From Lepidostoma basale (Eukaryota; Arthropoda; Insecta; Trichoptera; Lepidostomatidae): a stretch of 64,000 nucleotides of DNA. A program made the translations under genes and the position numbers. Each line of letters opens with the position of its first letter. The stretch's first letter is position 1. Location of the stretch: assembly GCA_022606425.2 (NCBI GenBank), contig JAHDVF020001378.1:101297-165296 (forward strand), in the 5' to 3' direction. Of this stretch, positions 57-56,830 are shown piece after piece. The notes beneath the pieces are model-generated. The model was not told the DNA's origin. It searched no databases and was given only the letters and a program-made list of their open reading frames with translations.

Positions 57-318
57 TAGTCCATTAGCGTTTTAAATTATTTTTTAATAATACATAGTAT
101 TTTAAAACTGTTATATAATATTGAAATAACTTTGTTTTTTGTATCACAATTGTATTTTATTTTACGCGACAGCTGTAACACCTGATGATGTCAACATAGG
201 TTGACGAAACAGCTGTCGCGTAAAATAAAATACAATTGTGATACATAAATCAAAGTTATTTTAATTTAACAGTTTTAAAATATTAAGGTATCATAGTGTT
301 TCGGCCAAAACAATGGAC
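57..318. mobile_element. Foldback element with ribozyme in its loop
   Basis: Perfect 36-bp inverted arms (141-176 and 209-244) flank a 32-nt loop that holds a hammerhead core. Weaker pairing continues outward. The right end (TTTCGGCCAAAACAATGGA) matches the termini of the foldback elements at 10820-11328 and near 22050. No ORF is present. Family members end in TAGTCC...GGACTA, so it is a non-autonomous mobile element. Confidence 0.75.
182..217 (+). ncRNA. Hammerhead ribozyme motif, ACAGCTGT family
   Basis: CTGATGA (182-188) is followed by one T, a 6-bp stem II (GTCAAC/GTTGAC) closed by ATAG, then GAAA (206-209), self-complementary stem III ACAGCTGT (209-216) and C217. This matches C3-A9, G12-A14, A15.1-U16.1 and H17 of the hammerhead, with predicted cleavage after 217 (GUC). 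Stem III has no loop, as in hammerheads that cleave as dimers. Deviations are one unpaired T before stem II and a poor stem I. Self-cleavage is inferred, not shown. Confidence 0.75.
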
Positions 319-1327
319 AATACATAGTATTTAATCTTTCTTTGAAAATGGTGTAAAACTTCAAATTAAATAATTAATACGAAAAAATAAAAAAATAAAT
401 TTTAAATTTCAAGCTGTTTTTTTTCATAATGGAAATGACATGTTTCATCTTGTCAAGATATTATTAAATTGTTAATCACCTTGCTAACCATCTAGAGAAA
501 GCAATGTATAGCATTCTCCAGTTCGTCACTATGAAGAGGAATTAAGACATGGCCCCGAATCTCGTGTGACCCTTGAAAAATAAGATAAAGATGCCTTCTC
601 TCAAGTGATAGTCAACGTCAGTGGGACCTGACATGGCACCAATACAAAAGGGAGAACAAATTCTCTATTGTTTCACTGAAATAGACATATTTATTTTATA
701 CAATGTTAAGATTTTAACACCTTTATGAATTGGGGATTTTGTGATATACAAATAAACTGCCTCACATTTGTAGATAGAACCTTTTGAAAACAATATTAAG
801 TACTATTAAATATAAATACTATTCAACGAAGTGAAACATTTCAAGACCAGTTTTATTCAATGTTAGTTTACTAAAATATGCGTCAAAATGAAAGGAAGAT
901 GTCTTTCTTGCATAAGCAACGATGTTTACGAAAATTTAATTGAAAAGAGAATGTGAACCCAGTTTATTATTTTATTTATTCAGAAGACTCGAGAAGAATG
1001 CGAAATGAACAATATATATTTAAAAAATAACCAATTAACAATTGCGATATTTTTCGAAGGATACAAAAATTCTATATTATCCCCTGATAATTTTACAATG
1101 CGTCAGGCATGCATGTCGCCTTACAATGTATCTCTTTATTTTCTTTAAATTTACTTGAAATTTCCTTGAAATATTTATTTATTTTATTAGTCATCATTAG
1201 TCCGACAGTGAGTAAATGACAGCGTCCAGTTTCTGAAATCTTGCAGTCGTTAGGTACTTGAAAATGTTTTACAGTGGATAATTATATAAATTTATTTCTT
1301 TGAACAAATATTTTAAAGCATATACAT
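319..1327. other. AT-rich DNA, no feature recognised
   Basis: Only short ORFs in AT-rich sequence. No splice-flanked coding block, repeat boundary or RNA motif was found on either strand. Confidence 0.5.
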
Positions 1328-1689
1328 TAGGGTGTCCCTTATTTTTCAAAGTTTTAATTTTACAATGCATAGGCTATTGTTTTATTCATTTGGGCCTAAA
1401 ACATCCGAAACCAAATTTTTTCCTTATTCGGAACAGTGTAACCCGTGCCGACTTGCGCGTAAAGATGTCCCATACAAATTGCGTCACAGGAGCGGCGCGT
1501 TGTTGTTGTTATTATGATTTAGTCTCGATTGTAGGGTAGTAAACACGGATTGTTTTATATTTCGAAGATGTCAATGGAACTAAGAAGCAATTAAAAAAGT
1601 ATTTTCTTGGTTGGTGAAGTAAATCACCAAATAACAGGTGTAAACAACCAACTAATCGTCAAGTTCTCGCAGATCTATTTTTCAACATG

Positions 1690-2545
1690 CGTGAAGTTAA
1701 TTTGACTGTTAATGAAAGCGCAAATCTTGTCATTCTGGAGTGCAACATATTCTGAAATAGGCTAGAATACCTACCAGAGCTGTTCTTAATAATGTTAAGA
1801 AGTTAGTGGATCTTCATCAGGTCTGACGAGAACTGCAAAAATAGCAAGAAGATTCAGGACTTGCATTGGCGCCGCGAAGAGAAATTTCAACTTGAATTAG
1901 ATCATTTATTCGACGTCGCACACGCCTATGCTCTTGAATGTGCTGTGATACGACAGCATTTTATACAGGATGCTTGAAGGGAGCTTATGTGCAAAAACTA
2001 GAAAGAGATTTGTTACTCTTTGCTGGCCGCCATCACATATAAAAACTGATGCTCAAAAGTGCGTTTGAATCGCAAAATCGATTGTACGAGATGATTATAG
2101 AGAACTCATTGAGCTTGTTATTGTTTTTCTGGGTAGAGGTAATAAAAATAAAATAAAAATCAGACCTGCTGGCCCAATGAATCAAGCACGATGGACGGCA
2201 AGAGCTATTTACTCCTTGAAAATACTTTTGCTGCAGTCCCAGTTTAAAATGTGCGCTAAGGACAAACAAGCTTTACGAGATGTTTGTTTATTTATTGTGG
2301 CAGTTTATGTAAAGCCCTGGCTTGAATGTAGTTTAGCAATAAAAGCTCAGAATCAAGATTTATGTTTTTGAAAGACCTTTAAAGCCGCTTTGGAAATTGA
2401 CAATTTCCAAAGCGGCTTTAAACAAGTTCAGTCAACATTTGTGGTACTTGTCAGAGGAAATAGCTATCTTTTTAATTTTTGATGACAACGTTGATGAGCA
2501 AACTAAAGGAAACATTGTAGAAAACTTACAAAAATAAAGTTTTGG
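1690..2545 (+). pseudogene. Broken transposon-encoded protein
   Basis: Plus-strand reading gives protein-like islands split by stops and frameshifts. One near 1690-1990 includes LFDVAHAYALE, and one near 2425-2540 includes LWYLSEEIA. Both resemble a protein recalled from arthropod DNA transposons, but the match cannot be verified here. The perfect hairpin at 2378-2422 interrupts it. No intact catalytic domain is readable. Confidence 0.5.
2378..2422. repeat. 45-nt perfect hairpin
   Basis: Arms of 22 bp (2378-2399 and 2401-2422) are exactly complementary around a single A. It lies in the decayed transposon and looks like a local inverted duplication. It would form a stable cruciform or RNA hairpin. 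Confidence 0.8.
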
Positions 2546-3360
2546 TGATTCGGGAAAGAAATATGTTCCATCGAAGGAACAGATGTCTGGGTCTCTATAT
2601 GGTACGTAAGTAGTGTTTAATCTGGTATTTAATTTAGAACTAATTTGTTTTATTTATAGGTACTACAAGTATTTGTTATCTTGTTTCATGGAAATCTTTG
2701 AGTGATTTTGTTTCTGTCAAGAGTAAAGATTTATTTTCATAACTGGAACTTGATAGTAATTTCCTTCAATAAATTTTATCTTCATAGAAAGACAGCGCAA
2801 CGTTTGTGGGAGCTATAAATAAGGTTACTAGCTTAAAAGCAGTTAATGACACAGCTAAAAGAGCTGTTAATCTAATGACAGACTTTCATGATTTGGCTAC
2901 CGCAGATGAAGAACATAAGCAGTTCATATTATGTTGGGTATAGAAAAATTTACCCAGACTGTAAAAAAAGAGACTTTGAAGAGGAAATATCCAAGTAAAT
3001 AAATATAAATTTGGATCTTTTTTGATAATTACATGAAAAGCATTTTATAAATATGTGTTTCCATCAATATTTATCTAACATAATGGTTTTAAGTGATCAT
3101 CTACAACTACATTTAAGAGACACTTAAATCACATATTTTCTAAAACTTTGAGGGCAAGTCGGCACGGGTTAGAATTAATGTAGGAAGTTGAAATTCTGTA
3201 TTTGGGTAACTAGTAGACTATTAAACACAATTAGGGGGTATGCGTTTCAATAATCCAAAAAAAAAATTTTTTGCCCATATAAGGGACACCCTAATATACA
3301 TATTTCACATGTGAATTAGATAAGCCTCAAATTGTTTAGTTTTTATCAATAATATATTGA

Positions 3361-3553
3361 CGACCTTCGTGGCAGAGTGGTTACAAGCTCTGACTTCCAT
3401 GCCGAAGGTCCTGGGTTCGATTCCCGGTGATGGCAGTGTGATTGTCACACTGTCTTTGGTCTGGTGTAGAATTCAAGTGACAATAAAATGGCGATAGATT
3501 GGCTACCTATCACATGTCACGAGAATCAATATAATAGCTAAAAAAAAAAAAAA
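3361..3553 (+). mobile_element. tRNA-derived SINE (family S1)
   Basis: The 5' part is tRNA-like, with a pol III A box TGGCAGAGTGG (3370-3380) and B box GGTTCGATTCC (3414-3424). A family-specific body follows (TGTCTTTGGTCTGG, CAATAAAATGGCGATAGATT), then a 13-A tail. Other copies lie near 12.6, 16.0, 17.1 and 53.7 kb (+) and 19.0, 26.4 and 40.6 kb (-). Confidence 0.85.
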
Positions 3554-5692: not shown

Positions 5693-6062
5693 TTTTAAAT
5701 AATTAATACAAATGAAAACGTTTATTTTCTAGAATATTTATATTATTTTATGGGAATATTATTATATTCCTTAAAATATAATAAAGCTTAGGAATTTTAA
5801 AAAACTATGTTTAGTCCACTAATTATTTAAAAATATTTAAAAACCACGACATATTTCGGAGGATACCTCAATATTCAGGTGGTATCCTCCGAAACATGTC
5901 GTGTTTTTTTATATATTTTAATAATTAGTGGATTAAACAAAGTTATTTTTAATTTCCTAAGTATGTTGCTATGGAATTCTACAGTGTTAATGCCTTAGCG
6001 TTCAATAAGTTGATATAACAAACCTTTTAGTAAACAGACGTTTTCATTTGTAATAAAATTAA
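5693..6062. mobile_element. Nested foldback elements
   Basis: Outer arms (AATGAAAACGT... and ...ACGTTTTCATTTG) match the foldback family at 54849-55037. Inside, about 5803-5945, lies a second palindrome centred near 5877 whose arms run to TCCACTAATTATT and AATAATTAGTGGA. The inner one has GGTATCCTCCGAAACATGTC at 5881-5900: GAAAC, palindromic ACATGT and C, but no recognisable CTGATGA. One foldback element has inserted into another. Confidence 0.65.
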
Positions 6063-7563: not shown

Positions 7564-7759
7564 TACTACTTCTTTATCACATGACTTGACTAGAGCTTAC
7601 ATTTAGGATTATTTTTGCCCTTTAAACTTTAATTTTGTTTATTCTTCATTTAAACGTGGTGTCTCGTTACTGTTTATGTATTAAAAATAATTATTTATTA
7701 TTATTATAACTTATATTGAAGGTTAAATGATTTGAATCAAATCTCCTAATGGAATTTCT

Positions 7760-8010
7760 TTTTAAATAATCTATAATTTATTAATGAAAACATTAGTTTT
7801 CTAGAATTTTAAGGAAGCGGCATCGCCTAGATAAGGAATCATCACATATATTATGTTATAATACCTTAGATTTTTTTAAACGTCCTAATTCTTCCACGAA
7901 TATAATAAAAATTCTGGAAAATTGACGTTTCATTAAAAAAAATATTAAAACTTTTATAAAACAGACGTTTTCATACGTATTAATAATTCAATGTAGGTTT
8001 TTACATATTT
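7760..8010. mobile_element. Degenerate foldback element, ACATGT family
   Basis: The ends (TTAATGAAAACATTAG and CAGACGTTTTCATACGTATT) match the foldback family at 54849-55037. The centre (about 7815-7860) is too decayed to recognise a ribozyme core. Confidence 0.5.
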
Positions 8011-8243
8011 GTTCAAGAAACAATTTATGTACATATTATACAGGGTCATCGAGAAATAATGCCAACATTTAAAAAAATTATAGCACCGAAACACTTTATG
8101 TTAAACGTGTAATTCTGTCATTTAACGCTAGCTGGTATACGAAATTTTTGTTTTGAAGGTGGCGTGATCTTGCTATGTGCACACAGATGTGCAGTAGCCA
8201 AGGTTGGTGGCGGACGCGCCAACGACTGCCACCGTTCAGTACG

Positions 8244-10470: not shown

Positions 10471-10909
10471 CCATGTGAAGTGAAGGTGCTACAGAAGAAT
10501 TTTCTGAATTTCTTGAAGATATCACTCTATTACACTATCCTCAAGAAGGAAGCAACATAATAAATCCATTTCAGAGAGTCTAATAGATTCGCCATATTAT
10601 GCCCTACGAGGATCTCTTGGATAATAAAGGGAACAAATTATAGTGAGTGCCCCGAACGGCGTTTAATACTCATATATTGAGTTGAAGAGGGCTGCAGAAG
10701 ACTGATCTCAGTGGAGGACGAGGTGCAAGACTGCTGCAAACCAATCCCTGTATATCCATAAATCAATCCCATAAAGTAAATATCTGACAATTGTATAAAT
10801 GATTTTGAAATAAATTTAATAGTCCATTGTTTTGGCCGAAACACTATGATTTTAAACTGTTAAATTAAATATCTTTGTTTTTATATCACAATTGTATTTT
10901 ATTTTACGC

Positions 10910-10945
10910 GACAGCTGTTTTATCAACCTATGTTGACATCATCAG
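10910..10945 (-). ncRNA. Hammerhead-like motif, left arm (mutated)
   Basis: On the minus strand: CTGATGA (10945-10939), T, stem II, then AAAAC where GAAAC is expected, ACAGCTGT and C at 10910. G12 is changed, so cleavage is unlikely. It is the mirror image of 11204-11239. Confidence 0.55.
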
Positions 10946-11203
10946 GTGTTACAATAATACAATGTATATCAAATGTCAAATTTTCGTGATTTTTCGAATC
11001 TTTATGTCTATTTGTTCCTATGTCAATTTGAATAATTTCTTTGATATAATTTTGAAGTTCTTGCTATATTTTCGTACCTAACTCAATTTCAGCAAGAACT
11101 TCAAAATTATATCAAAGAAATTATTAAAATTGACATAGGAACAAATAGAAATAAAGATTCGAAAAATCACGAAAATTTGACATTTGATATATTATTGTAA
11201 CAC

Positions 11204-11239
11204 CTGATGATGTCAACATAGGTTGATGAAACAGCTGTT
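11204..11239 (+). ncRNA. Hammerhead ribozyme motif, right arm
   Basis: CTGATGA (11204-11210), T, stem II GTCAAC/GTTGAT with a G-U closing pair and ATAG-type loop, GAAA (11228-11231), stem III ACAGCTGT (11231-11238), then T11239 as H17 (GUU). All conserved core positions are present. Stem I is weak and one base is unpaired before stem II. Confidence 0.68.
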
Positions 11240-11470
11240 GCATAAAATAAAATCGGTTGTGATATGTAATTTAACAGTTTAAGTTAAATGTTAAGGTATC
11301 ATAGTGTTTCGGCCAAAACAATGGACTATTTAAGTAATGCAACAAATTATGATTTATACGTCATTTCATATTCCTTATTTCTTTGTACAAATCATAAAGC
11401 AATTTTACTAGGACTGATTAAGAACGTTCACGTGATGACGTACCAATATTGAAACGTACAATTTATTAAC

Positions 11471-12588: not shown

Positions 12589-12764
12589 CGACCTTCGTGG
12601 CAGAGTGGTAAGAGCTCTGATTCCCATTCCGAAGGTTCTGGGTTCGATTCCCGGCGATGGCAGTGTGATTGTCACATTGTCTTTGGTCTGGCGTAGTATT
12701 CACGTGACAATAAAATGGCGATAGATTGGCTACCTGTCACATGTCACGAGAATCAATATATCAG

Positions 12765-12838
<74 letters not shown>
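12589..12838 (+). mobile_element. tRNA-derived SINE S1 with 71-A tail
   Basis: The closest-to-consensus S1 copy, with a tRNA-like head (A box about 12598-12608, B box 12641-12651), a body ending AATCAATATATCAGCTT, and an uninterrupted run of about 71 A (12768-12838). Long pure A tails shorten and mutate with age, so this is likely the most recent S1 insertion here. Confidence 0.88.
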
Positions 12839-14390: not shown

Positions 14391-14429
14391 ATTTTTCTTA
14401 ATAATTCCACACTACAAATTAAGTAACAA

Positions 14430-14925
14430 TAGTTAAAACGATTGTTTACTGGTTTTCCTTGGATTTAATTTATAAAAATTATATTATATTATATTATATA
14501 TTATAATTCTTTTTTTTTTCTTGTCTTTTTCTTTTTTTCACATTTTAAAATTATGTTTCATTTTTAACTATTCATTATTACTAATACTACTAGTTTTCTC
14601 TTTAACTTATCAAAGTGTTACTTTATTATTTTTATATATTTAACCTTATGTCAGTTGTTATATAATATTTGTGGTAGCATGTAATTGGCCTTGTTTTGTT
14701 GTCTCTGTGTGTTTATACTCATATACTGTAATTGCTGTTTGTTACCCTCAATAATAAAATAATAAAAATAAAGACGAATTTGTTTCGCCTTGCGAGGGCA
14801 TTCTCAAACGAATATGAGTATGCACTAGCAAGGCGAATCAAATTTCTCAATATTTATATAATTGAAATATATTAAATCCAAGTAAAACCACTTAACAATC
14901 GTGTTTACTATTATATCATAATAAT
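14430..14925. mobile_element. Foldback element, ACAAATTTGT family
   Basis: Outer arms (GATTGTTTACTGG... and its inverse ...CACTTAACAATC) flank an inner pair of motifs. The left, about 14775-14815 on the minus strand, is TTGAGAA, T, stem-loop GCCCT-CGC-AAGGC, then GAAAC. The right, about 14820-14852, is decayed. Same family as 49722-50157. Confidence 0.65.
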
Positions 14926-14959
14926 GGAAATAATATTTTTAAATTCTTTCTAGTTAATT

Positions 14960-15989: not shown

Positions 15990-16085
15990 TGGCCGAGTGG
16001 TAAGTGGTTTGACTGCCATACCGAAGGTTCCGGGTTCGATTCCCGGCGATGGCAGTGTGATTGTCACACTGTCTTTCGTCTGATT
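15990..16085 (+). mobile_element. SINE S1, 5' part
   Basis: tRNA-like head with B box GGTTCGATTCC (16033-16043) and body up to CACACTGTCTTTCGTCTG. The matching 3' half starts 450 bp later (16537-16672), so one SINE may have been split by an insertion of unknown type. Confidence 0.75.
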
Positions 16086-16672: not shown

Positions 16673-16796
16673 ATTATTATTCTATGCTTTCTTATAGTAT
16701 ATAAACTAGGTTTGCTTTATTACACAAAATCCTTTTTTGTTTATTTACTTTATCACAAAAAATATAATATTGTATAAATAACTTATTTTAAAAATA

Positions 16797-16975
16797 TTAA
16801 ATAAATAAATAAAAACGTTCTATTTAACCACGGTATGGTTATTATTATTGATGCCAACTAGCTTCGCTTGGATCCAACTAAGTTTTTATACTGGCCTGAT
16901 GAAGCTTGGGCCCAAGCGAAACTAGTTGGCATCATTTATAATTAACATATAATGGTTAAATAAAAAGTTTTTTTA
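16797..16975. mobile_element. Foldback element, ACTAGT family
   Basis: Inverted arms (GGTTATTATTATTGATGCCA.. / ..TGGCATCATTTATAATT) around a centre near 16889. The right arm has an intact ribozyme core; the left mirror motif at about 16856-16885 is mutated (GCTTC for GTTTC). Confidence 0.78.
16896..16927 (+). ncRNA. Hammerhead ribozyme motif, ACTAGT family
   Basis: CTGATGA (16896-16902), one A, stem II GCTTG/CAAGC with loop GGCC, GAAA (16918-16921), stem III ACTAGT (16921-16926), T16927 as H17. All invariant core bases are present. Stem I pairs at the first position (G-C) and again at the third and fourth. Confidence 0.75.
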
Positions 16976-17076
16976 TTAATTTTATATTTTTAAAATGTCT
17001 TACCAAAAAGTGAGTGCTTCATATGAAAATTTAACTTATTTTATTTAATTATTGACATTGTCATATGTATATATAC

Positions 17077-17318
17077 CTTCATGGCTGAGTATTAAGTGCT
17101 TTAATTATCACCCGGAAGGTCCGGGTTCGATTCCCGGACCTTATCACACTGTCTTTGGCCTGGAACACAATTCATGTGACAATTAAATGGCGATAGTTTA
17201 TCTAACTATCGCATGTCACGAGAATCAATATGATAGCTATACCCTTTACATGGATTTGGCTCGCGCTGTAAAAATGTAAAAAGCTATTCAACAAAATAAT
17301 CTTAATAATATACAGGAG
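17077..17318 (+). mobile_element. SINE S1, long subtype
   Basis: tRNA-like head (B box 17124-17134), body, then the extension TTGGCTCGCGCTGTAAAAAT and an AATAAT-type 3' end. The A box is degenerate. Confidence 0.8.
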
Positions 17319-18296: not shown

Positions 18297-18372
18297 TGGT
18301 GTTCTTGTACCGACCCTTATCTAAGGAAGCGAAGGATGGAACTGGCAAAAGCAGAATGAAAGTAGAATAAAT
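18297..18372 (+). mobile_element. LINE family A internal fragment
   Basis: Reads as the YGSEAWNWQ... region of the family A ORF with mutations. No 3' tail. Confidence 0.6.
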
Positions 18373-18384
18373 GTAAATAATAAT

Positions 18385-18572
18385 TAAATAAAACTATGTT
18401 TTTTAACAATACCACTGTTGTCTTTATTTCGACAGCGAACGGTTTCGCCAAGCTCGCTGGCATCGACAGACTGGCCTAGTCTGTCAATGTCAGCGAGCCT
18501 GGTGAAACTGGTCGCTGTCGTAATAAAGTCAAAAGTGGCAGTAGTTAAATAAAACATCGTTTTTTTTATCAT
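18385..18572. mobile_element. Foldback element, ACCGGT family with paired motifs
   Basis: Inverted arms run from TTAAATAAAACTATGTTTTT to AAATAAAACATCGTTTTTTT. Mirror motifs lie at 18437-18469 (-) and 18481-18513 (+). The left core is CTGTCGA (A6 changed), the right CTGTCAA. Both keep GAAAC and a following stem III (AACGGT and ACTGGT) then C. Confidence 0.7.
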
Positions 18573-19029
18573 TATTTAATTCCATCAAGAGATTTCAGTA
18601 AAATCATTTGATTATATTATAGAATAAATGTAATAAAAATTAGATTAAATGTAATAGCAAGTGTAATTATATTTATTTAAATAACTGATATTAGTATTAT
18701 AATCTGAAATATCAGATATTTCGGGTGCTTTCAATATTATTTTTTTAATCAATTATTTGATTAAATAATAATCTGCACCTTATTGTTGCGACTTACTTGT
18801 ATTACACATACAAATGCATATACGATGAACTATTTTTTCTTAATGTTTTGTTTTATTTTTTTTAGCAAATTGTATGATTAAAAACATAACCTTATTTATC
18901 CAACATTCTAGGCTTGTTGCAGTCAATCACCACTCTACCGTGAAAGAGAAAAATCTTTAAAGTTTTTCCATCACAACTGCTCAAGACTTCGACCAAACTG
19001 CTACCTTGAATGCTGTGAGTAAGATTTAA

Positions 19030-19989: not shown

Positions 19990-20050
19990 AAAAAATTTAC
20001 TTATCAGATATGTTTCGGACAATCGGTCCTTCTTCAGTGATACATATTAT
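19990..20050 (-). repeat. Left half of a foldback element, GGAC stem family
   Basis: Contains the ribozyme motif 20007-20037. No matching right arm is evident downstream, so this is a half-element. Related halves are at 21346-21380, 44285-44425 and 56105-56830. Confidence 0.55.
20007..20037 (-). ncRNA. Hammerhead ribozyme motif with 5-bp stem I
   Basis: On the minus strand: stem I TATCA, core CTGAAGA (N7 = A), one A, stem II GGAC/GTCC with a 5-nt loop, GAAA, stem III ACATAT, C17, then stem I TGATA. Stem I is a perfect 5 bp and the core is complete. Stem III has one change from ACATGT, which weakens it. Confidence 0.7.
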
Positions 20051-20515: not shown

Positions 20516-21089
20516 TGTAAAATTTCAACGCCATTATCTTTATTAAATGAATTTAAAATAAGAGAGTTATGCAAATATTCTAGGTATATTGCTGAAAGCG
20601 TGTTTAACATAAACAAGTTGATCGTTCAGACCGGAAAATGTTGTATAAGTTCAAGGAATAAAATAGCTTTTGCATAATATTGCATGATAAAATATTTTGT
20701 AATTTTGTTTCATATAACAGATGAAAACACAATGTATGGCATGGCATGCACTCTACCTCATGGGCCCCTGCTTTTATAATATTATGGATATTGGTCAAGG
20801 TCTAAACATGATTTATGGTTTTAAATAACGCCAACAATTCTTGTATTCAAATCAAGTACGAGAGAATTTCTACCAAAACATCGTATCGATTTACTTATGA
20901 AGCATACCGAAGTAAATTATTAAACAATAAAATTCATTAACAAGTTATTACAAATAATGAAAATAATTAACAATTTTTATTTCTTTGTAAACTATGCTTT
21001 ATTATTTTTTTATTTTTTATATTTAAAATAAAATAGAAATAAAAACACTGCACTTTATTTTTCACCACTATGCGGTTATTTTAATTGCC

Positions 21090-21121
21090 GACTAGTTTCG
21101 CTTGTACCAAAGCTTCCTCAG
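21090..21121 (-). ncRNA. Hammerhead ribozyme motif, complete core
   Basis: Minus strand: CTGAGGA (N7 = G), one A, stem II GCTTTG/CAAGC type, GAAA, stem III ACTAGT, C17 at 21090, with a 3-bp stem I (GCT/GGC, one wobble). All invariant core bases are present. Confidence 0.73.
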
Positions 21122-21149
21122 AGCTTCGCAATAACGTTATAACGAAGCC

Positions 21150-21181
21150 CAGAGGAAGCTTGGGTACAAGCGAAAATAGTC
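21150..21181 (+). ncRNA. Hammerhead-like motif, right arm
   Basis: CAGAGGA (U4 changed to A), A, stem II GCTTG/CAAGC, GAAA, AATAGT, C21181. Two differences from the left arm, so reduced or no activity is expected. Confidence 0.55.
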
Positions 21182-21345
21182 GGCAATTAAATTAACCGCA
21201 GAGTGGTGAAAAACAAAGTGCAGTGTTTTTATTTCTATTTTATTTTAAATATAAATTATAATAAAAAATTTAAATGTCTTACCACAAAGTGAATGCTTCA
21301 TACGAAAATTTAATGCGTTATTATTTTTTTAATTAAATTAACTGG

Positions 21346-24337: not shown

Positions 24338-24532
24338 CATTAATTATCAGAATGAAAACGTATACTTTCTAGAAATGTTGTTGTAATTTATAGGAATAAC
24401 GTATTTCTCCTTTGTAAGGCATTATTATCAAATGATTTTGATAATGCTTTCATAATGTACATGTAATGGCATTCCCAAAAAAATATGATAAAACTTCTAG
24501 AAAACAGACGTTTTCTTTTGTTTTAATTACAT
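24338..24532. mobile_element. Foldback element, ACATGT / GATAAT family
   Basis: Ends AATGAAAACGTATACTTTCT and AGAAAACAGACGTTTTCTT. The centre has mirrored GATAATGC-type blocks but the GAAAC parts are degraded. Confidence 0.55.
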
Positions 24533-36394: not shown

Positions 36395-36530
36395 TTTATT
36401 GATTCTTGAACAGTGGTGTAAAACTCCTTATTGATGGTTGAGGGATTAATTTTGTAAAACTTCATTATTATTTTATAATAGTAAACACGATTGTTCAGTG
36501 GTTTTACTTGGATTTAATTCAAATTCATAA
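36395..36530. repeat. Half foldback element, ACAAATTTGT family
   Basis: The AGTAAACACGATTGTTCAGT and GGTTTTACTTGGATTTAATT arm matches 14430 and 49722. The ribozyme-bearing centre is absent. Confidence 0.5.
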
Positions 36531-37145
36531 TGAATTGTTACTAGGTACATAGCTCAACCTAAATTACTTAGTAATGTTACTGTTAAACATTATATATTGA
36601 CTCTCATAAATTCCTAGTAATTCAATTTAAATTTAAATGTTACTTTTTATTATTATGTATTGAACTTCAAAAATTCCTAGAAATTCAGTTGTAATGTTAC
36701 TGTTTTTTATAATGTATTGAACCTTCAAAATTCCTAAAAATTCCGTTTGAATGTTACTGTTTATTATAAATTATTGAACCTCAAAAATTCTTAGAAATTC
36801 AGTTGTGATGTTACTATTTATTATAATGTAGAGAACCTCAAAAATTCCTGGAAATTTAGTTGTGTGTTACTGTTTATTATAATGTAACGGTATAGAACCT
36901 CAAAAATTCCTAGAAATTCAGTTGTAATGTTACTGTTTATTATTATGTATTGAACCTCAAAACTTCCTAGAAATTCAGTTGTAATGTTACTGTATAGTAT
37001 AATGTATTGAACCTCAAAAATTCCTATAAATTCGGTTGTAATGTAACTGTTTATTATTATGTATTGAACCACAAAAATTCCTAGTAATTCTGGTGTAAAT
37101 TTAAATATTACTATTTATTATTATGTATTGAACCTCAACAATTCT
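36525..37145. repeat. Minisatellite, ~58-62 bp unit, about 10 copies
   Basis: Units contain ATTGAACCTCAAAAATTCCT, AGAAATTCAGTTGTAATG and TTACTGTTTATTATAATG. Copies diverge by point changes and small indels. It begins at the edge of a foldback half-element and ends at an S2 SINE fragment. Confidence 0.85.
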
Positions 37146-37205
37146 TTTTTCATGATAATGAGCTATTTTCTTTTTACATTGAAAATCGTAAAAAAAATAC
37201 ATATT
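37143..37205 (+). mobile_element. SINE S2 3' fragment
   Basis: CATGATAATGAGCTATTTTC and TTACATTGAAAATCGTAAAA match the S2 body. The head is missing. Confidence 0.6.
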
Positions 37206-37610
37206 TAAAATATGTACAATTTTATATATCTACATATGTACACCGAAGAGACCGGTTTGCTCTTATTAAACCACGGAATGAAAGTAAATATCGTCAATGA
37301 AAGGTTGCTAAACTATTGGAATGTGTATTCCTATAATATTAATTTAACCCTGTCTTAAAATCAATATTTGTATTATTCTACTTCAACCGATTTGAAGGAA
37401 CCAACCGAATATCCATGAACCATAAAATTTGTAGAATTAGGTAAAACGAATAATTGAAAATTGGCCTGCGTTTATTTGTTCAGTATAAATCAATTATATC
37501 AGATTTGAAAGCTTCTTCAAATTGATTTTAACGTTATCTCTATTTACGTTTTGGGATTACGTTCTTACACTACACTTTATTTTCACATCACTAACAATTC
37601 ACTGGTTTGA
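37206..37610. other. No feature recognised
   Basis: Unique-looking AT-rich DNA before the minisatellite. GAGACCGGTTTGCTC near 37249 is a lone ACCGGT site without the ribozyme context. Confidence 0.35.
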
Positions 37611-37611
37611 A

Positions 37612-38338
37612 TAGGAACCGAAGAATGATCCACAAAATGATCCTAAGAACGAGTATAAGAATGGTCATAAGAATAATCCTTAGAATGATCCTATGAAGGA
37701 TCACAAGGATGATCCTAAGAATGATCATAAGAATGATCCTAAGAAGGATCCTATGAATGATCCTAAGAATGAGTATAAGAATAATCATAAGAATAATCCT
37801 TAGAATGATCCTATGAAGGATCATAAGGATGATCCTAAAAATGATCATAAGAATGATCATATGAATGATCATAAGAATGATCATATGAATGATCATAAGA
37901 ATGATAATATGAATGATCATAAGAATGATCATATGAATGATCATAAGAATGATCATATGAATGATCATAAGAATGATCATATGAATGATCATAAGAATGA
38001 TCATATGAATGATCATAAGAATGATCATATGAATGATCATAAGAATGATCATATGAATGATCATAAGAATGATCAAAAGAAAGATCATAAGAATGATCAT
38101 AAGAATGATCCTAAGAATGATCATAAGAATCATCCTAAGAATGATCATTAGAATGCTAATAAGAATGATCCTAAGAATGATCATATGAATGATCCTAAGA
38201 ATGATCACATGAATGATTCTATATGAATGATTTAATGAATGATCCTAAGAGTGATCCGAAGAATGATCCTATGAATGAGCATAAGAATGATCCTTAGAAT
38301 GATCCTATGAATGATCAAAAGAATGATTTTATGATGTA
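37612..38338. repeat. 12-bp minisatellite (GATCATAAGAAT type)
   Basis: About 60 tandem 12-mers. In the core (37840-38080) two variants, ATGATCATAAGA and ATGATCATATGA, alternate as a 24-bp higher-order unit; the edges are more mixed. Because 12 is a multiple of 3, frames stay open on both strands: 112 codons of N-D-H-K/M repeats (+) and 205 codons of I-I-L/H-M repeats (-). These are most likely by-products of the repeat, not genes. Every unit carries a GATC site. Confidence 0.93.
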
Positions 38339-42107: not shown

Positions 42108-42215
42108 TTCTTCTTCTTCTTTTGATAGATCTGACGATCTGTGACACAGAAATCATATCTCGTCGGATGATGAGATCCAGCTGTCCCTCCATCTCTTAGG
42201 CGGTCTTCCAGGTGG
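42108..42215 (-). mobile_element. LINE family C 3' untranslated end
   Basis: Downstream end of the minus-strand LINE: CTGGATCTCATCATCCGACG, ACAGATCGTCAGATCTATC and an AAGAAGAAGAAGAAG tail. Matches 29702-29797. Confidence 0.75.
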
Positions 42216-43390
42216 GCGGTGTCCGGAAGGGATTTCATAGGCGGCTGTATACGCGAGTCTGTCACCATTCATTCGGGCTACATGGTCCCTCCAGTATCTT
42301 CTTCTGGATCTACTCCACTGAACGATATCCTCTATTTCGCAGGTTTTCCTTATGTCTGCGTTGCGGACACGATCTCGGAGGGTTTTTCCAGTAATTGATC
42401 TTAGGACCTTCATCTCCGATGTTCTAAGTAGTCCCTTGGTTCGCACAGTGTCAGCCCGCGTCTCTACAGCGTACGTCATGATGGGTCGCACGCATGTTTT
42501 GTATATTCTGATCTTGCTGTCGATACGCATGTGCTTGTTTTTCCAGACTAGATTCTTCAGGCATCCTGACACGGCAGAGGCTTTACTGACTTGTTCACGT
42601 ACTTCGGTATAAAGGTCACTTTGGCTGCAGATCTCCACTCCCAAATACCTGAAACTCATCACCTGCTCCACAGGTATATCATCAACAGTCAGTTTACATC
42701 TTGCAGGTTGCCTAGATATAGTGAGACTTTTTGTTTTGTTGACTGATATAGCCATATTTAGCCTTTGGGATACTGTGTGGAATTTGTACAACATTCTTTG
42801 CAGGTCATCTTCAGACTCTGCTATTAATGCGGCATCGTCCGCATAGCAAATGACATTCACAGTTTTACTGCCCATTTTATAACCTAGTCCCAGGCCAGCT
42901 ACCTCTTCTATAATTTCGTCCATAATAAGATTGAACAGAAAGGGGCTCAAACTATCTCCCTGTCTTATACCATTGCTTGTAGGAATTTCCCTAGACAGTT
43001 CATTGTCAACCTTAATTTTCGTTTTGCAATTGGTATATAGATCTTGGACAGTCTTTATCAATGTATTGGATATTCCTCCTTCCTGTAATTTTCTTACAAT
43101 ATCTCTTAACAACACCCTGTCAAATGCCTTAGTCAGATCGACAAAACATATATAGGCTACTTTATTATATTCAATTGCTTTCTCTTTCAGTTGCCTCAGA
43201 ATGAAGATTGCATCTGTTGTGGAGCGATTTCGTCGAAAACCCTGCTGTTCTTCCCTATTCGTTATCTTTTGCTCAAGTTTCGTTTTCAGAATACTTGTAA
43301 ATAGCTTAAGCATTGTGCATAATAAGGAGATACCTCTGTAGTTCTCTAGGTTTTTCTTTTGCCCTTTCTTAAATACAGGTGTTGTTATAC
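42153..43390 (-). CDS. LINE family C reverse transcriptase (5'-truncated)
   Basis: The best-preserved non-LTR reverse transcriptase here; it copies the LINE RNA at a nicked target. The frame is open for 386 codons from ATG 43313 and continues in frame upstream to about 43390 (TPVFKKGQKKNLENYRGISL), so the true start is lost. From ATG 43313: FVDLTKAFDRV at about 57-67, SNGIRQGDSLSPFLFNLIMD at 113-132, catalytic YADD at 157-160 (42834-42845), SFRYLGVEI, then the C-terminal WKNKHMRIDSKIRIYKTCVR, SITGKTLRDRVRN and a final GRPPKRWRDSW. No internal stop. The apurinic endonuclease domain expected upstream is missing. Most like the RTE group; exact clade uncertain. Confidence 0.85.
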
Positions 43391-43564
43391 TTATACTATG
43401 AGTATTATGTATAAAATAAACACGTTTAAAACATAGATACCTTTATTTTCTATAAGTTTGATTATATTTGATTGAATTGTCGTATTTCGTCTTACTGGGG
43501 TATTATCAAATAATCTTTGAACTATTTCAATATTCTTTAAAATATCATTCATTTTCTTTACTTC

Positions 43565-44284: not shown

Positions 44285-44425
44285 ATTCGCCATAACTTTT
44301 TTATTGCGGATTCGTTGAACAATGTTTGTTACTTTGTAAACAACACTTACTTTATTTAAAGTTAAAATTAAAATACAAACATGTTTCGGACACAGAAGTC
44401 CTTCATCAGTGTTTTGTAAGTTTTT
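44285..44425 (-). repeat. Half foldback element, GGAC stem family
   Basis: Left arm (GGATTCGTTGAACAATGTTT, TGTAAACAACACTTACTTTA) leading to the ribozyme motif 44378-44409. No right arm. Confidence 0.6.
44378..44409 (-). ncRNA. Hammerhead ribozyme motif, complete core
   Basis: Minus strand: stem I ACA, CTGATGA (44409-44403), one A, stem II GGAC/GTCC with loop TTCTGT, GAAA, stem III ACATGT, T17 at 44378, stem I TGT. Every conserved core base is present, stem III is a perfect palindrome and stem I has 3 bp. Among the best copies here, apart from the unpaired A before stem II. Confidence 0.76.
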
Positions 44426-48439: not shown

Positions 48440-48780
48440 AGTCTGCTGGACTGTATTTAGGGCGCTGCATGGAATGGGACCCACCTACATATCTGAACTC
48501 TGCATCACCGAGAACCTGAATGCGAGGCAGTCTATATTGCGATCAGCAAGATCTTCCGCGATGGGTAGATTGTACGTACCGAAGCGTTATCCTCGCAGAA
48601 ATTTCGGCGACCGGGCCTTTGCTGTAGCTGGCCCCTCGGCCTGCAACGGTCTCTACAACAGCTGGACATAGGCCTCCCCATACTTCTCCATGTATGACAC
48701 GTCATACGGGGGGTGGTTGGCATTACAACGCCACGCTTGCCAGACGGGTTGGCGAGGTGACCTTCCACGTTAGCCTATGC
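48440..48780 (+). pseudogene. CR1/L2-like LINE C-terminal remnant
   Basis: Reads MGPTYISELCITENLNARQS, then RRNFGDRAFAVAGPSACNGL. The PAYL..L and R.FG.RAF.VAGP.WN.L signatures are typical of the end of CR1/L2-type reverse transcriptases. It continues into 3' sequence shared with 23390-23560. Confidence 0.65.
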
Positions 48781-48784
48781 ATCT

Positions 48785-48995
48785 ATGCATATAAAAATGT
48801 TTATTTTCAACAAAATGTTTATTTTTTTCAAAAATGTGAATTTTAAACTAAATGTTTATTTTTAACGAAAATGTTTATTTTTACCAAAAAATTTATTTTT
48901 ACCAAAAAAATTATTTTTAACTAAATGTTTTATTTTAACAAAATGTTTATTCTGAACGAAATGTTTATTTTAACTAAAACATTTATTTTTAACTA
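48785..48995. repeat. Short tandem repeat, ~17-19 bp unit
   Basis: About eleven imperfect units of AAAATGTTTATTTTTAAC. AT-rich minisatellite. Confidence 0.8.
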
Positions 48996-49680
48996 GTTCA
49001 TAAAGTGAAGCTACAGCGCCCTTGAGATGATTAATTCATAAAAATAGCGCTCTATAAATCGTCCAATTAATTATTAATATATTCAATGCATAAGAAAGAA
49101 AAAATTTTTTTTTCAAATTTCACGCTTTATAGTTTTGGTTCAAATGGTATTCGTCCAAAAAGCTCGCTTTTCCACGAACTCCTTTCGCAGAGGAAAAAAA
49201 TTCCCCAGTCAAAGTTCGCCGGCAGAGAGATGAACTACCTACTTAAGGAAGACTCCGTCTGCGAATGAGAAGATATTATAATTCCGGTCTGTACCCGCCC
49301 GGCGGAGGAAGGCCCAATTGAGCGTACTCAACGAGGGATTTTGAATAAATCCAAGTTTTAACTGTAAATAAATTTGATCCCAGTTCTGATTTTACGTAAC
49401 TTTGCTCTTTAGCTGGTGGGAGTAATTTAGTAACTTACAAAAAATACAAGATAAAAAATTACGTATAATACGAACGTGTACAAATGACATGAAAAACGTG
49501 TAGAACGTGTACAAACGTGTATGTAGTTTTTTTTTGTATTATATAATCATACTATTGTTTACATGTTTCGTTTAAAACACTATTGTTTACATGTTTACGT
49601 GTAATTTTTCTCATTTTTTTTTTAAAACAATAGATAATGCCTTAGAAGGACAAAACATTTCAATTCCATCTCAAATATTG
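48996..49680. other. No confident gene
   Basis: Contains a decayed relative of the 33194 hairpin element (49012-49062) and a GC-richer patch (49150-49320) with a 60-codon ORF of no recognised type. Confidence 0.35.
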
Positions 49681-49783
49681 TACCGATGGTTGGGGTATTA
49701 GTTTTGTAAAACTCCATTATTAATTTATTATAGTAAACACGATTGTTTACTGGTTTTACTGGGATTTAATTTATATAAATTAT

Positions 49784-49818
49784 CACAAATTTGTTTCGCC
49801 TTGCGAGAGCATTCTCAA
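49784..49818 (-). ncRNA. Hammerhead-like motif with U3-A8 core
   Basis: Minus strand: TTGAGAA, T, stem GCTCT/AAGGC (imperfect), GAAA, stem III ACAAATTTGT, T or A. C3 and G8 of the hammerhead are replaced together by U and A, which could keep the 3-8 pair. Confidence 0.5.
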
Positions 49819-50059
49819 ACTGAACCTAATCGCCAAACAGTGTGTCCTTATATTTAATTTAAAAATATTAAGGGTGGGGGAGAAAGTATATAATGCAAAT
49901 TTTTGAATTGTTTAATAGAACAATTTTAAGGTTTTTCTTATATTCTTTCTTTTCTTTTCGTTTTTCTCATCATCTAAGATTTGCATTATATACTTTCTCC
50001 CCACCCTTAAGATTTCTTAATTCAATATTAGGACACACTTTTTGGCGACAAGTTCGGTT

Positions 50060-50094
50060 TGAAATTTGCCCTAGCAAGGCGAAACAAATTTGTT
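50060..50094 (+). ncRNA. Hammerhead-like motif, right arm
   Basis: TTGAAATT, stem GCCCT/AAGGC, GAAA (50081-50084), stem III ACAAATTTGT (50084-50093), T50094. The core is less well kept than in the left arm. Confidence 0.45.
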
Positions 50095-50159
50095 ACAATT
50101 TATATAAATTAAATCCCAGTAAAACCACTAAACAATCTTGTTGACTATTATAAATTAAA

Positions 50160-52320: not shown

Positions 52321-52376
52321 CATTAAATGTTGTGAATTAAAACACTGTTTTTTCCACTTTTGAGTTTATTTTTCTC

Positions 52377-52410
52377 GACATGTTTCGAAAGCTTACGCCT
52401 TCATTATCGG
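52377..52410 (-). ncRNA. Hammerhead-like motif, left arm
   Basis: Minus strand: CCGATAA, stem GAAGG/CTTTC, GAAAC, ACATGT, C17. U4 and G8 are changed. Confidence 0.5.
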
Positions 52411-52433
52411 GAGAGATAGTTTATATCGTTCTC

Positions 52434-52467
52434 CCGATGATGAAGGTGTAAGCCTTCGAAACATGTC
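52434..52467 (+). ncRNA. Hammerhead ribozyme motif, tandem copy 1
   Basis: Stem I TTCTC, core CCGATGA (only U4 changed, to C), T, stem II GAAGG/CCTTC with a 6-nt loop, GAAA, stem III ACATGT, C52467, stem I GAGAA. Stem I is a perfect 5 bp. Predicted cut after 52467. Confidence 0.65.
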
Positions 52468-52584
52468 GAGAAAAATAAACTCAATAGTGGAAAAAACAGT
52501 GTTTTAATTCATAAAAATTCGTCATTATGGAATTCCACAATGTTAACGCCTAGTTTATCATTAGAGATAGTTTATATTGTTCTC

Positions 52585-52616
52585 CCGATGATTAAGGTTA
52601 GCCTTCGAAACATGTC
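52585..52616 (+). ncRNA. Hammerhead ribozyme motif, tandem copy 2
   Basis: The same layout 149 nt downstream, with stem II loosened (TAAGG/CCTTC, shorter loop). Stem I TTCTC/GAGAA is intact. Predicted cut after 52616. Confidence 0.6.
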
Positions 52617-52715
52617 GAGAAAAATAAACTCAATAGTGGAAAAAACAGTGTTTTAATTCATAAAAATTCGTCGTTATGGAATTCCACAATGTTAAAGCCT
52701 AGTTTATCATTTTCA

Positions 52716-53444: not shown

Positions 53445-53656
53445 TTTTAAATTACTAATAACACAAACTATTTATATTCCAGGTTTAAAATCACGTATAC
53501 TATATATAAACTATGTCTATTCCAAGTTTCAAATTACGAATAACAAAAACTGTGTATAATAAAAGTTTCAAATTACGAATAATAAAAACTGTGTCTAATA
53601 AAAGTTTCAAATTACGAATTAGAAAATCTTAGTCCATTCCATGTTTCAAATTACGA
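53445..53656. repeat. Minisatellite, ~40-bp unit, about 5 copies
   Basis: Units start GTTTCAAATTACGAATAA and continue AAAACTGTGTATAATAAAA. The array is interrupted by an S1 SINE and resumes for one partial unit after 53886. Confidence 0.8.
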
Positions 53657-53879
53657 CCTTCGTAGCCGAGTGGTAAGATTCCCGGCGATGGCAGTGTGAT
53701 TGTCACTCTGTCTTTGGTCTGGTGAAGAATTCACGTGACAATAAAATGGCGATAGATTAGTAACCTACATACCACGTGTTACGAGAATCGATACGATAGC
53801 TATACTCTTTAAAAAATGTATTTGGCTCGCTCTGCAATGATGTAAAGAGCAAGGCAACAAGATAATAATAATAATAATA
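53657..53879 (+). mobile_element. SINE S1 inserted in the minisatellite
   Basis: Flanked by the 7-bp duplication ATTACGA (53650-53656 and 53880-53886), both copies being minisatellite sequence. The head has an internal deletion that removes most of the tRNA-like part including the B box. It ends with an (AAT)n tail. It cannot be transcribed by pol III from its own promoter. Confidence 0.85.
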
Positions 53880-54655: not shown

Positions 54656-54659
54656 TGAA

Positions 54660-54805: not shown

Positions 54806-54908
54806 CCAGTATTTATTGTTTCTTTAACAATTATGTAAAACTCCATATTAAATAATTAATACGAATGAAAACGCGAGTTTTCCAAAAGTTTTATTATATT
54901 TTATGTGG

Positions 54909-54939
54909 ATGACATATTTCGCCCTTCTAAAGCATTATT
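54909..54939 (-). ncRNA. Hammerhead-like motif, left arm
   Basis: Minus strand: TTAATAA, T, stem GCTTT/AGGGC (with wobbles), GAAA, TATGT, C17. C3, G5 and G8 are changed. Confidence 0.45.
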
Positions 54940-54946
54940 AAACGTC

Positions 54947-54977
54947 ATTTGATAATTCCTTAGAAGGGCGAAACATG
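54947..54977 (+). ncRNA. Hammerhead-like motif with U3-A8 core
   Basis: TTGATAA (54947-54953), T, a stem of four pairs closed by AGA, GAAA (54968-54971), stem III ACATGT, C54977. C3 to U and G8 to A change together; all other invariant bases are kept. Confidence 0.55.
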
Positions 54978-55119
54978 TCATTCCCATAAAATATAATAAA
55001 ACTTCTAAAAAACTGACGTTTTCATTCATATTAATTACTTACAAAACAGAGTAAAACATGGTACCGGATTTTAATATACGAGTATAAAATTAAAAGGAAA
55101 AAATCATTTATGGCCATTA

Positions 55120-55335
55120 AATTATTTCAGACAGATATTAGCGAGGGCACGAGGCAGACCAAGAGAAAGATGGACGGGCTGCGTTGAAGATGACTGTGAT
55201 AAACTGGAAAGACCTAGAGAATGAAGAGGAATGGCCAGGAACAGAAGACAGTAGAGGACTATTGTGAAGGAGGCCCATCTCACACCAGGATGTAACGCCA
55301 AGAAAAAGAAGAAGAATAAAGCTATCATAATTTGG
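55120..55335 (+). pseudogene. LINE C-terminal remnant
   Basis: Reads ARGRPRERWTGCVEDDCDKL, then decays, ending with an AAGAAAAAGAAGAAGAATAA tail. Same general type as 10240-10470. Confidence 0.55.
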
Positions 55336-55479
55336 GTAAATTTATATTTTATTTTATCTATTAAGCGCGTTTTGTTTTTAATATCTTTTCCATAATAAAT
55401 TTTTAATACTTTTTTAATCCTTGGATTTTGTGATCTAAAAGTATATATTGTTTCTTGAATAATGATGTAAAACATATTT

Positions 55480-55660
55480 TAAATAATTCATATAATACAA
55501 AAGAAAACATCTGTCTTCTAGTTGTTTTATTATATTTTATGAAAATGACATAGTTCGCTTTGCTAAGGCATTATCAAATAATTAAATGTTAGCAGGGTGA
55601 TTCAAGTTTTAATTGTTTATAACAGTTTATATTTCATAACATGTTTCGAAAATCTGATAT
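55480..55660. repeat. Foldback half-elements, decayed
   Basis: 55480-55590 is the left arm of the ACATGT/GATAAT family (minus core TTGATAA, GAACT for GAAAC). 55630-55660 has TAACATGTTTCGAAAATCTG of the GAAGG family. Confidence 0.5.
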
Positions 55661-56104
55661 TATAAGCATATAAACTAATAAAATTAAATTTCTATCGACT
55701 ACAAGGAGCAGAAAATATCAATAGCGAAATCGTTAGTCAATATCGTTTTCTCTAAGATGAGGTATTTTCAATTATTTCATTTCATTTATTTATTTATAAT
55801 GATAACAAACATTACAGATGCGTCCAAGTCCTCTGCAATCTAAAAATAACAAAATAAGATATATTTTTAATGAAACATTTAAAAAAAATTAAAATAAAAT
55901 ATATATAATACATAAATACTACGGCATCGGAAATTATAATCACAACATTGATATTGCATCCCCAAGGCAACTCACACTATCACGAAATATGTTGACCTCC
56001 AAGGCGACCCGATTAAGCAATGAGATTGCTATACCCACAGGTATAACCATTGGCTGGTTGATTCTGCAGCATAAACATTGGAAACTGTTTACTCTTGTTG
56101 GAAA
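55661..56104. other. No feature recognised
   Basis: No coding or repeat evidence apart from a dense A/T tract at 55840-55920. Confidence 0.35.
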
Positions 56105-56830
56105 AAAATTGATTTATTGAACAATATTTTATTAACTTTGTTACACAACACTTTAATTATTATTGAAATAAAATTAAAAATTAACGTATAGGGACACAGA
56201 AGCCTTTCATCAATCTAGATACATATTATAAATACAAAATAAATATATAAACATTTTTTTCAACATCTCGTCACCTGAGAGGAAGAAGGTTCCAATTGAC
56301 AAAAGTAAAAAGCTGAGAAAAATGAAGTCAAAGTTTTATTGGTTTCGGGTGTGTATCTTGGAATAAAAGGGTTTTATTCCAATTTCCAGAGATTCTTTTA
56401 CCGAGAAACGTGTAAATTTTGTCTGGCAACAGTTGAAATAACAAACTTCTAAGTTTAAATGAATCCTTCTTCAGTGAATCGTGTGTTTTGAATGATCAGA
56501 TGGAACTTGATTATTTTAGTAACATTAAAATGACGATAATTTTACATGTTTTTTTTATTGTATTTATAGATAAGGTCAGTAAGAACCGTTTTCACGAAAA
56601 AAAGCCAAATGTGAAATTTTGTTATTTGGAACCCTCTTACTCTCAGGTGACGATCTGTCAAAACTGACCACATTCAATTTGTTTAAATATTTATTTTGTA
56701 TATATATACATTATAAAATATGTAAGTACACTGATGAAGTGCTTCTGTGTCCTAAAAATGTTAAGTTTTGGGCAACAAAGTTAACGAAATATTATTCAAT
56801 TATGAATTCACAACACAAAGTAAAGTGAAT
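56105..56830. mobile_element. Inverted pair of GGAC-family half-elements
   Basis: Left arm TTGATTTATTGAACAATATT... (56110) and right arm ending ATATTATTCAATTATGAATT (56810) are inverses about 450 bp apart. The left motif near 56186-56212 is decayed. The right (56733-56765) keeps CTGATGA, A, GTGC...GTCC but has TAAAAA for GAAAC. Confidence 0.6.

Follow-up and report, generated by a model that had tools for sequence, protein, structure and literature searches.

What gave rise to the short palindromes with hammerhead-like ribozyme motifs that recur in a 64-kb stretch of Lepidostoma basale DNA (contig JAHDVF020001378.1, positions 101,297 to 165,296)? This stretch, hereafter the window, is AT-rich, repeat-rich eukaryotic DNA, and every count and statement about elements given below is limited to it. 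A preliminary description had seen in the palindromes a possibly undescribed non-autonomous group of foldback elements. The results presented here make a different answer quite probable, namely that the foldbacks are pseudo-long terminal repeats (pLTRs; the 5' end plus the start of the open reading frame, ORF) of several Penelope-like element (PLE) families that each bring a minimal type I hammerhead of their own, and that these pLTRs were inserted as short ORF-less head-to-head pairs, likely by priming on two strands.

The motif was sought with a descriptor consisting of a CTGANGA core with at most one mismatch, a stem II of at least 4 bp, and GAAA, and 300 simulated sequences (first-order Markov) served as the null. 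With exactly one extra base (A or T) between A9 and stem II, nine sites were found against a simulated mean of 1.18 (maximum 5), figures that, like those that follow, are only guides because the descriptor was shaped after the first matches had been seen and copies of the same family are not independent. At all nine sites stem III is self-complementary, with no more than one mismatch (simulated mean 0.44, maximum 3); it is perfect at six (simulated mean 0.087, maximum 1) and has one mismatch at the other three. Without the extra base the counts stayed at background: two sites versus 1.28, and with stem III one versus 0.50. Four of ten CTGANGA...GAAA strings (26512, 29722, 42131 and 42540) fail the descriptor's stem test. 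The nine sites fall into six families, F1 (182, 11204), F2 (16896, 21096, 21150), F3 (52434), F4 (44384), F4b (20013) and F5 (18443). When seven families were compared with four pairs each and one copy per family, 26 of the 28 stem II positions paired within families; 8 of 5040 reassignments of the 3' strands were as good, mismatched combinations averaging 2.0 of four. Both the shared hammerhead-like design with a minimal stem III and the stem II that is family-specific and yet pairs, as proposed in the preliminary description, are thus borne out, and as a sequence pattern the predicted hammerhead fold is real. A first MAFFT alignment of ten motifs placed a GATGATG repeat out of register; neither pair counts nor a covariance model were based on it, and the stem II permutation took its place. 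Exact-pattern scans of viral contigs with two patterns gave no match. The motifs are:

182-217, plus strand: F1 minimal hammerhead motif with intact consensus core, C3 to N17.
11204-11239, plus strand: F1 motif, intact core.
16896-16927, plus strand: F2 motif, intact core.
18437-18469, minus strand: F5 motif (site 18443), core CTGTCGA with A6 changed.
20007-20037, minus strand: F4b motif, single copy (site 20013), with a 5-bp stem I (TATCA/TGATA) and one mismatch in stem III.
21090-21121, minus strand: F2 motif in the left arm of foldback E6 (site 21096), intact core CTGAGGA.
21150-21181, plus strand: right-arm F2 motif of E6, core altered to CAGAGGA, one mismatch in stem III.
44378-44409, minus strand: F4 motif, single copy (site 44384), intact core.
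52434-52467, plus strand: F3 motif, core CCGATGA, 5-bp stem I (TTCTC/GAGAA).
52563-52711, plus strand: second F3 copy, in tandem; its motif (52585-52616), with the first stem II pair broken, lies 151 nt after the first.

Copies with an intact core (CUGANGA...GAAA plus stem II) exist in F1, F2, F4 and F4b. The core is changed in F3 (CCGATGA, U4 to C), in F5 (C/TTGTCGA, A6 to U) and in two further families, F6 and F7, which have the same frame but show TTGANAA in place of CTGANGA in most readable copies (C3 to U and G8 to A). At least eight families had been claimed: six are recovered by the descriptor, while F6, F7 and the palindrome at 5787-5961 keep the motif frame with a core that is changed or lost. 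Stem I measures 5 bp at 52434 and 20013, 3 bp at 44384 and 21096, and 1 bp at 182, 11204 and 16896. That all this amounts to chance look-alikes of a hammerhead in AT-rich palindromes would agree with the changed cores, with the weak stem I of several motifs and with the outcome of the Rfam search described below, but six perfect stem III sites against a mean of 0.087, and family-specific pairing equalled by 8 of 5040 permutations, make it extremely improbable. C3 and G8 pair in the active hammerhead core. Five F6/F7 copies have both U3 and A8 (49685-49906, 14762-14809, 54946-55067, 55440-55579 and 24437-24568); this joint change may preserve the pair, and we treat it as a lead rather than a result. 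Since F6 and F7 are related (F7 weakly matches the F6 element E10), it may also be a single event. A C3G/G8C exchange gives partial rescue (PMC11167929; this and the other papers are cited for the sections covered here).

Thirteen palindromes, listed below with their flanking repeats and named E1, E2, E3, E4, E6 and E9 to E16, carry the motifs or remnants of them.

60-322: E1, F1 foldback of putative pLTRs, head-to-head; ends approximate, left arm starting at the stem III palindrome ACAGCTGT.
5787-5961: E16, symmetric palindrome; right arm with GAAACATGTC, core lost at the junction, arms 72/79 alike; found by eye and outside the nhmmer counts.
7758-8026: E14, F7 head-to-head pair; right arm tailed, left arm weak.
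10820-11329: E2, F1 foldback; each arm ends at ATGGACTA, inner arms long; flanking 6-bp repeat ATTTAA, not significant.
14415-14928: E15, F6 head-to-head pair; left arm interrupted, both arm ends near an ATG.
16791-17031: E3, F2 foldback; short left arm, tail of the right arm reading MSYQKVSASYENL.
16779-16790 and 17032-17043: 12-bp repeats TAACTTATTTTA flanking E3.
18377-18619: E4, F5 foldback; tail on the plus-strand arm (18474-18619).
18363-18376 and 18620-18633: 14-bp repeats TAGAATAAATGTAA flanking E4.
21013-21312: E6, F2 foldback; arms 91% alike, right arm tail MSYHKVNASYENL.
20994-21012 and 21313-21331: repeats ATGC(T/G)TTATTATTTTTTTA flanking E6, 18/19 matching.
24338-24569: E13, F7 foldback; left arm short, right arm tailed; 9-bp low-complexity flanking repeat.
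49685-50156: E10, F6 foldback; core TTGAGAA and tail MEFYKTNTPTIG both in the left arm.
52325-52562: E9, F3 foldback; left arm short, right tail MEFHNVNA-stop.
54808-55041: E11, F7 foldback; tail MEFYIIVKETINTGN on the left arm, right end ill-defined.
56143-56850: E12, degraded F4 pair in head-to-head orientation, with 312 nt between the inner arms.

The inner arms of E2 (10965-11191) are 101 nt long and 98% complementary, and its outer arms differ by ~13%. Ten Rfam microRNA families match E10 (49790-50088), E16 (5789-5960), E2 (11008-11144) and E9 (52378-52466), all below the gathering score; these matches look like palindrome artefacts.

The orientation of the copies was derived from 53 nhmmer family hits (E 1e-3), some of which had been used to build the models and some of which are loci matched by two families. 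Among 19 neighbouring same-family pairs at most 500 bp apart, 14 are head-to-head, three tail-to-tail and two direct; at a distance of at most 100 bp these numbers are 10, one and one (n = 12). The close tail-to-tail pair and one distant head-to-head pair involve the weak F7 match on E10. The ribozyme 5' ends therefore mostly point to the centre of a foldback, and the 3' ends of the units form its outer ends. No ORF is contained in the head-to-head palindromes, and many family copies are single arms. The preliminary description had assigned most elements two motifs, one per arm and in opposite orientation. The ORF-less head-to-head layout agrees with this, but none of the foldbacks in which both cores are readable has two intact ribozymes (the damaged cores are CAGAGGA in the right arm of E6, AAAA replacing GAAA in the left arm of E2, and CCGATAA in the left arm of E9), and the many single arms do not fit either.

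F3 at 52434 and 52585 constitutes the sole tandem same-strand motif pair seen, and its spacing of 151 nt is retrozyme-like. Metazoan non-LTR retrozymes are small tandem type I hammerhead repeats that spread via circular RNA (PMC7229834, PMC7761336), and they share with the window's elements the type I hammerheads and the short non-coding units as well as this one tandem pair (PMC7229834). Longer tandem arrays were, however, not seen in the window: inverted pairs dominate, direct ones account for 2 of 19, and the units end near a putative ORF start, features in which they differ from these retrozymes (PMC7229834). We therefore consider a retrozyme origin very unlikely.

The outer ends of the arms are informative. 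One-sided tails were scored by eye from arm alignments in nine of the 13 foldbacks (E1, E11, E12 and E14 were unscored), and six of the 13, E3, E4, E6, E9, E10 and E13, have a tail on exactly one arm, the overhang being ~35-57 nt. The tail ends are found again in further copies of the same family: that of the E3 right arm in the E6 right arm (57/61, F2), that of the E9 right arm in its tandem copy (50/52, F3), that of the E10 left arm at 36433 (42/48, F6), and that of the E11 left arm at 55440 (54/60), 313-383 (58/69), 24569 (40/50) and 8024 (46/55; all F7). The side of the tail, left or right, was considered as an argument against a propagating foldback and dropped, as a palindrome has no fixed left or right.

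At or near the tail, an ATG-initiated reading with similar first residues is found in 8 of 15 translated ends. These readings are MSYQKVSASYENL and MSYHKVNASYENL in F2, MEFHNVNA-stop and MEFHNVKA-stop (one change) in F3, MEFYKTNTPTIG and MKFYKINPSTI in F6, and MEFYIIVKETINTG and MFYIIIQETIYTF in F7; an F1 end (1 of 15) reads MDY only. Although short, they resemble, as far as such predicted peptides go, an ORF start common to diverged families. The ribozyme is located ~80-125 nt before the putative ATG and the tail ends ~30-45 nt after it.

Direct repeats of unequal length flank three foldbacks. They measure 12 bp in E3, 14 bp in E4 and 19 bp in E6 (18/19 matching), and 4, 3 and 2 per 1000 AT-rich random pairs, respectively, score as well, with boundaries that were set by hand after reading the sequence; the E3 and E4 repeats were the same beforehand, whereas E6 reached only a score of 7 with its first boundaries. 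We regard these three as target-site duplications. The repeats of E13 (9 bp; 38 of 1000 random pairs as good) and E2 (6 bp; 441 of 1000), and those of E10 and E1 (score 7), are not significant. These results bear on the view that the palindromes are terminal-inverted-repeat DNA transposons (miniature inverted-repeat transposable elements, MITEs) that contain the motif by chance. The palindromic shape and the matched ends of E2 and E16 would suit such elements; flanking repeats that are not of fixed length, asymmetric arm ends in six foldbacks, and a terminal repeat that was not seen to be shared across families do not, and we regard this view as highly improbable.

Much of the arrangement is known from PLEs. 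In Adineta vaga, inverted pLTRs are mostly head-to-head and have junction palindromes, solo pLTRs occur, and targets are AT-rich; one inverted pLTR may carry an optional 31-bp tail, the pLTR covers the first 12 ORF residues (22 with the tail), and target duplications are 8-10 bp or absent (PMC3846280). The window's elements share with these the head-to-head pLTRs, the 5'-end palindrome, the tail on one arm, what may be the start of an ORF, the solo pLTRs, the variable duplications and the AT-rich targets. They differ in that the inverted pLTR of Adineta vaga adjoins an element with an ORF or a captured gene, whereas here two arms are joined without any ORF (PMC3846280, sections covered); the word hammerhead has no occurrence in PMC3846280. 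Inverted pLTRs and 3' extensions are also named as PLE peculiarities in PMC8969392. As for the motif, minimal type I hammerheads that lack helix III are described both from the pLTRs of PLEs and as motifs scattered in their thousands (PMC6155905, PMC7761336), and the window's motifs resemble them in their type I core and their self-complementary, loopless or near-loopless stem III (PMC6155905, PMC7761336, PMC6466107). Enrichment in the window is confined to the class with an extra base after A9.

The enzyme of the Anolis PLE Poseidon (PAc) cuts and extends both strands and initiates reverse transcription at two internal sites, the optional tail of 30-40 bp corresponding to the stretch between them (PMC11167929). 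Shared with this system are a minimal hammerhead near the pLTR-ORF junction and, if our reading is correct, a tail delimited by two starts as well as cutting and extension of both strands. Reverse transcription in PAc, however, starts 111-118 bp into the ORF, farther than the tail ends observed here. PAc is a vertebrate element studied in vitro, and the section of PMC11167929 covered reports no joined head-to-head products.

Several observations weigh against a PLE origin, and they are gathered here. No ORF for a PLE reverse transcriptase (RT), or for an RT plus GIY-YIG, was found behind the pLTRs in the 64-kb window. Query proteins for tblastn against the window were the best 120 of 4913 and the best 120 of 1386 in two lists, which we take to represent Neptune-like and Penelope-type PLEs. 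The best 120 of one list gave no match in the window at E 0.01; the best 120 of the other gave seven at E 0.1, of which four lie in the ORF of a long interspersed nuclear element (LINE; best 0.001), one is antisense to another LINE ORF, at 51136 (0.016) and two are elsewhere (0.086 and 0.098). As a control, 120 LINE relatives gave 1036 matches in the same search. Six PLE motif patterns yielded a single match, YVDDIF at 54902 in E11, which lies between stops and is taken as chance. A loose motif of the putative ORF starts matched no N-terminus among the PLE proteins listed, most of which begin inside the ORF. No such ORF start is present at six of the 15 ends (F5 in E4, and F7 at 327, 24530, 7985, 52900 and 35910). 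Both arms end alike in E2, E15 and E16, and six one-tailed foldbacks among nine scored are no more than an independent random choice between two starts could give. Nine of the 12 foldbacks tested (all but E16) lack a significant flanking repeat. The Anolis PAc hammerhead spans the start codon (PMC11167929, sections covered) instead of preceding the ATG at the distance seen here. Concerning the ribozyme part, for which the preliminary description had named Rfam hammerhead covariance models as a check, a search of the window gave no hammerhead family at the gathering score or up to E 10, the presence of a loopless model in Rfam not having been checked. The Penelope connection that had been suggested stands as far as the pLTR-like marks are concerned; a PLE protein to accompany them was not found in the window.

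How would such pairs arise? Most likely, a PLE enzyme cuts its target and starts copying onto both strands from within the 5' portion of its own RNA. According to this mechanism, the PLE endonuclease-reverse transcriptase would cut both strands of AT-rich DNA, and each cut strand would prime complementary DNA (cDNA) at either of two internal starts on the RNA, close to the beginning of the ORF and to the first pLTR-ORF junction. Each cDNA would extend through the ribozyme to the RNA 5' end, where the two would meet 5' end to 5' end and be joined, and gap repair would duplicate the target. The predicted product is a reverse-complemented pLTR followed by a pLTR, without ORF, with the ribozyme 5' ends at the centre and the outer ends at the start sites; a different start on each strand would give the one-sided tail. 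That the two strands are bound to use different starts does not follow from the counts. Since the strands were seen not to differ in start site for the Anolis PLE (PMC11167929), the choice of start may be random. A more specific version, in which a dimeric PLE enzyme copies the strands from separate RNAs, using either of the two starts, and the copies are joined 5' end to 5' end, is put forward tentatively.

Two-strand priming has a competitor that concerns the same elements but another joining step: self-priming, as proposed for Adineta vaga, in which the palindrome at the 5' end of the pLTR lets an antisense PLE template fold back on itself and prime its own second arm (PMC3846280). Besides this precedent, short palindromic junctions in several foldbacks (E6 ATAACGTTAT, E1 ACAGCTGT) are in line with it, but palindromic centres say little because any clean inverted joint has one; for the same reason, junction palindromes were dropped as proof of an annealing step. 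Arms copied off one molecule should be closest relatives. In agreement with this, each arm of E6, and likewise of E10, has its closest relative in the opposite arm. This does not hold for E1 and E2 (E1 right and E2 left arms 95%, versus 87% between the two E2 arms), which counts against self-priming and has also to be added to the points weighing against our own reading; the right arm of E9 is closest to its own tandem copy (97%). Arms that are not closest relatives would fit two template RNAs, although gene conversion or rate differences are also possible explanations of the similarities. As a test of single-event origin, arm closeness thus had a mixed outcome. Self-priming accounts for the head-to-head joint, not by itself for both outer ends at recurrent sites, and we regard it as possible but doubtful.

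A further explanation would be a non-autonomous group that propagates as a foldback and is mobilised in trans by a PLE. The abundance of copies without an ORF (53 nhmmer hits at E 1e-3), the RT that was not found in the window and the foldback arms that are not always closest relatives favour it. However, foldbacks of the same family (E1 and E2; E3 and E6) differ in their central junction, which argues against descent from a single master foldback, although subsequent deletions could also have made the junctions differ, and many copies are single arms; such a group is accordingly unlikely. This corresponds to the undescribed foldback group of the preliminary description, a reading that the results do not support, since inverted pLTRs, palindromes and a one-sided tail are published for PLEs (PMC3846280, sections covered) and the E1/E2 and E3/E6 junctions differ: the carriers look like a known PLE arrangement and not a new foldback class. 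For ORF-less head-to-head pLTR pairs as a class, no description was found in a non-exhaustive literature search, and no priority is claimed.

The two motifs of a foldback, one per arm, cannot dimerise within a single transcript: the second motif is on the other strand, and a transcript through the palindrome holds one ribozyme plus its complement. Predicted folds of six foldback transcripts pair arm on arm (115/117 of the pairs in E6, 224/225 in E2, 80/80 in E3, 86/87 in E4, 83/92 in E9 and 168/180 in E10). Because the two motifs lie on opposite DNA strands and the arms pair, burying the ribozyme, the foldbacks should not cleave as dimers. Minimal PLE hammerheads themselves are said to cleave as dimers, according to Lunse, Weinberg and Breaker and to Cervera and de la Pena. 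The minimal hammerhead of the Anolis PLE cleaves only with protein present and is dispensable for insertion in vitro (PMC11167929). Judging from the modelled folds, the ribozymes in the foldbacks are probably passengers and any function belongs to the parent RNA, in which they would cleave as dimers or with the help of protein.

The remainder of the window contains other repeats. The longest ORFs that can be recognised in it encode a LINE reverse transcriptase (minus strand, 42153-43442), whose nearest named protein relatives are from beetles and flies, and a Gypsy polyprotein in pieces (58503-62643), the Gypsy-like element showing gag, RT, RNase H and integrase across three overlapping frames. 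LINE-like repeat copies or fragments lie at 18290, 25062, 30644 and 51136. A long array of a 12-bp repeat occupies 37501-38244, with a minus-strand open frame for an MIILMIIH-like peptide, and tandem arrays with periods of 57 bp and ~18 bp are located at 36543-37153 and 48776-49008, respectively. Finally, a repeat family resembling transfer RNA (tRNA), probably a short interspersed nuclear element, is present at 3371-3553, 12591-12780, 15990-16082, 17141-17239 and 53629-53811; one copy scores as a tRNA in Rfam.

How PLE inverted pLTRs form, and what minimal hammerheads do in these elements, is left open in PMC3846280, PMC7761336 and PMC11167929 (sections covered). Short ORF-less pairs are a handy record of insertion, as outer ends, junction and target site lie within a few hundred bases, and a genome-wide tally of pairs with no tail, one tail or two can be set against the products of in vitro reactions. 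For genome scanning the lesson is that GAAAC near the centre of a palindrome may mark the end of a PLE, and not necessarily a MITE or a microRNA gene. If two-strand priming on two RNAs is true, it would explain the inverted pLTRs of PLEs generally, and the ribozyme palindromes would be a main PLE product in the genome.

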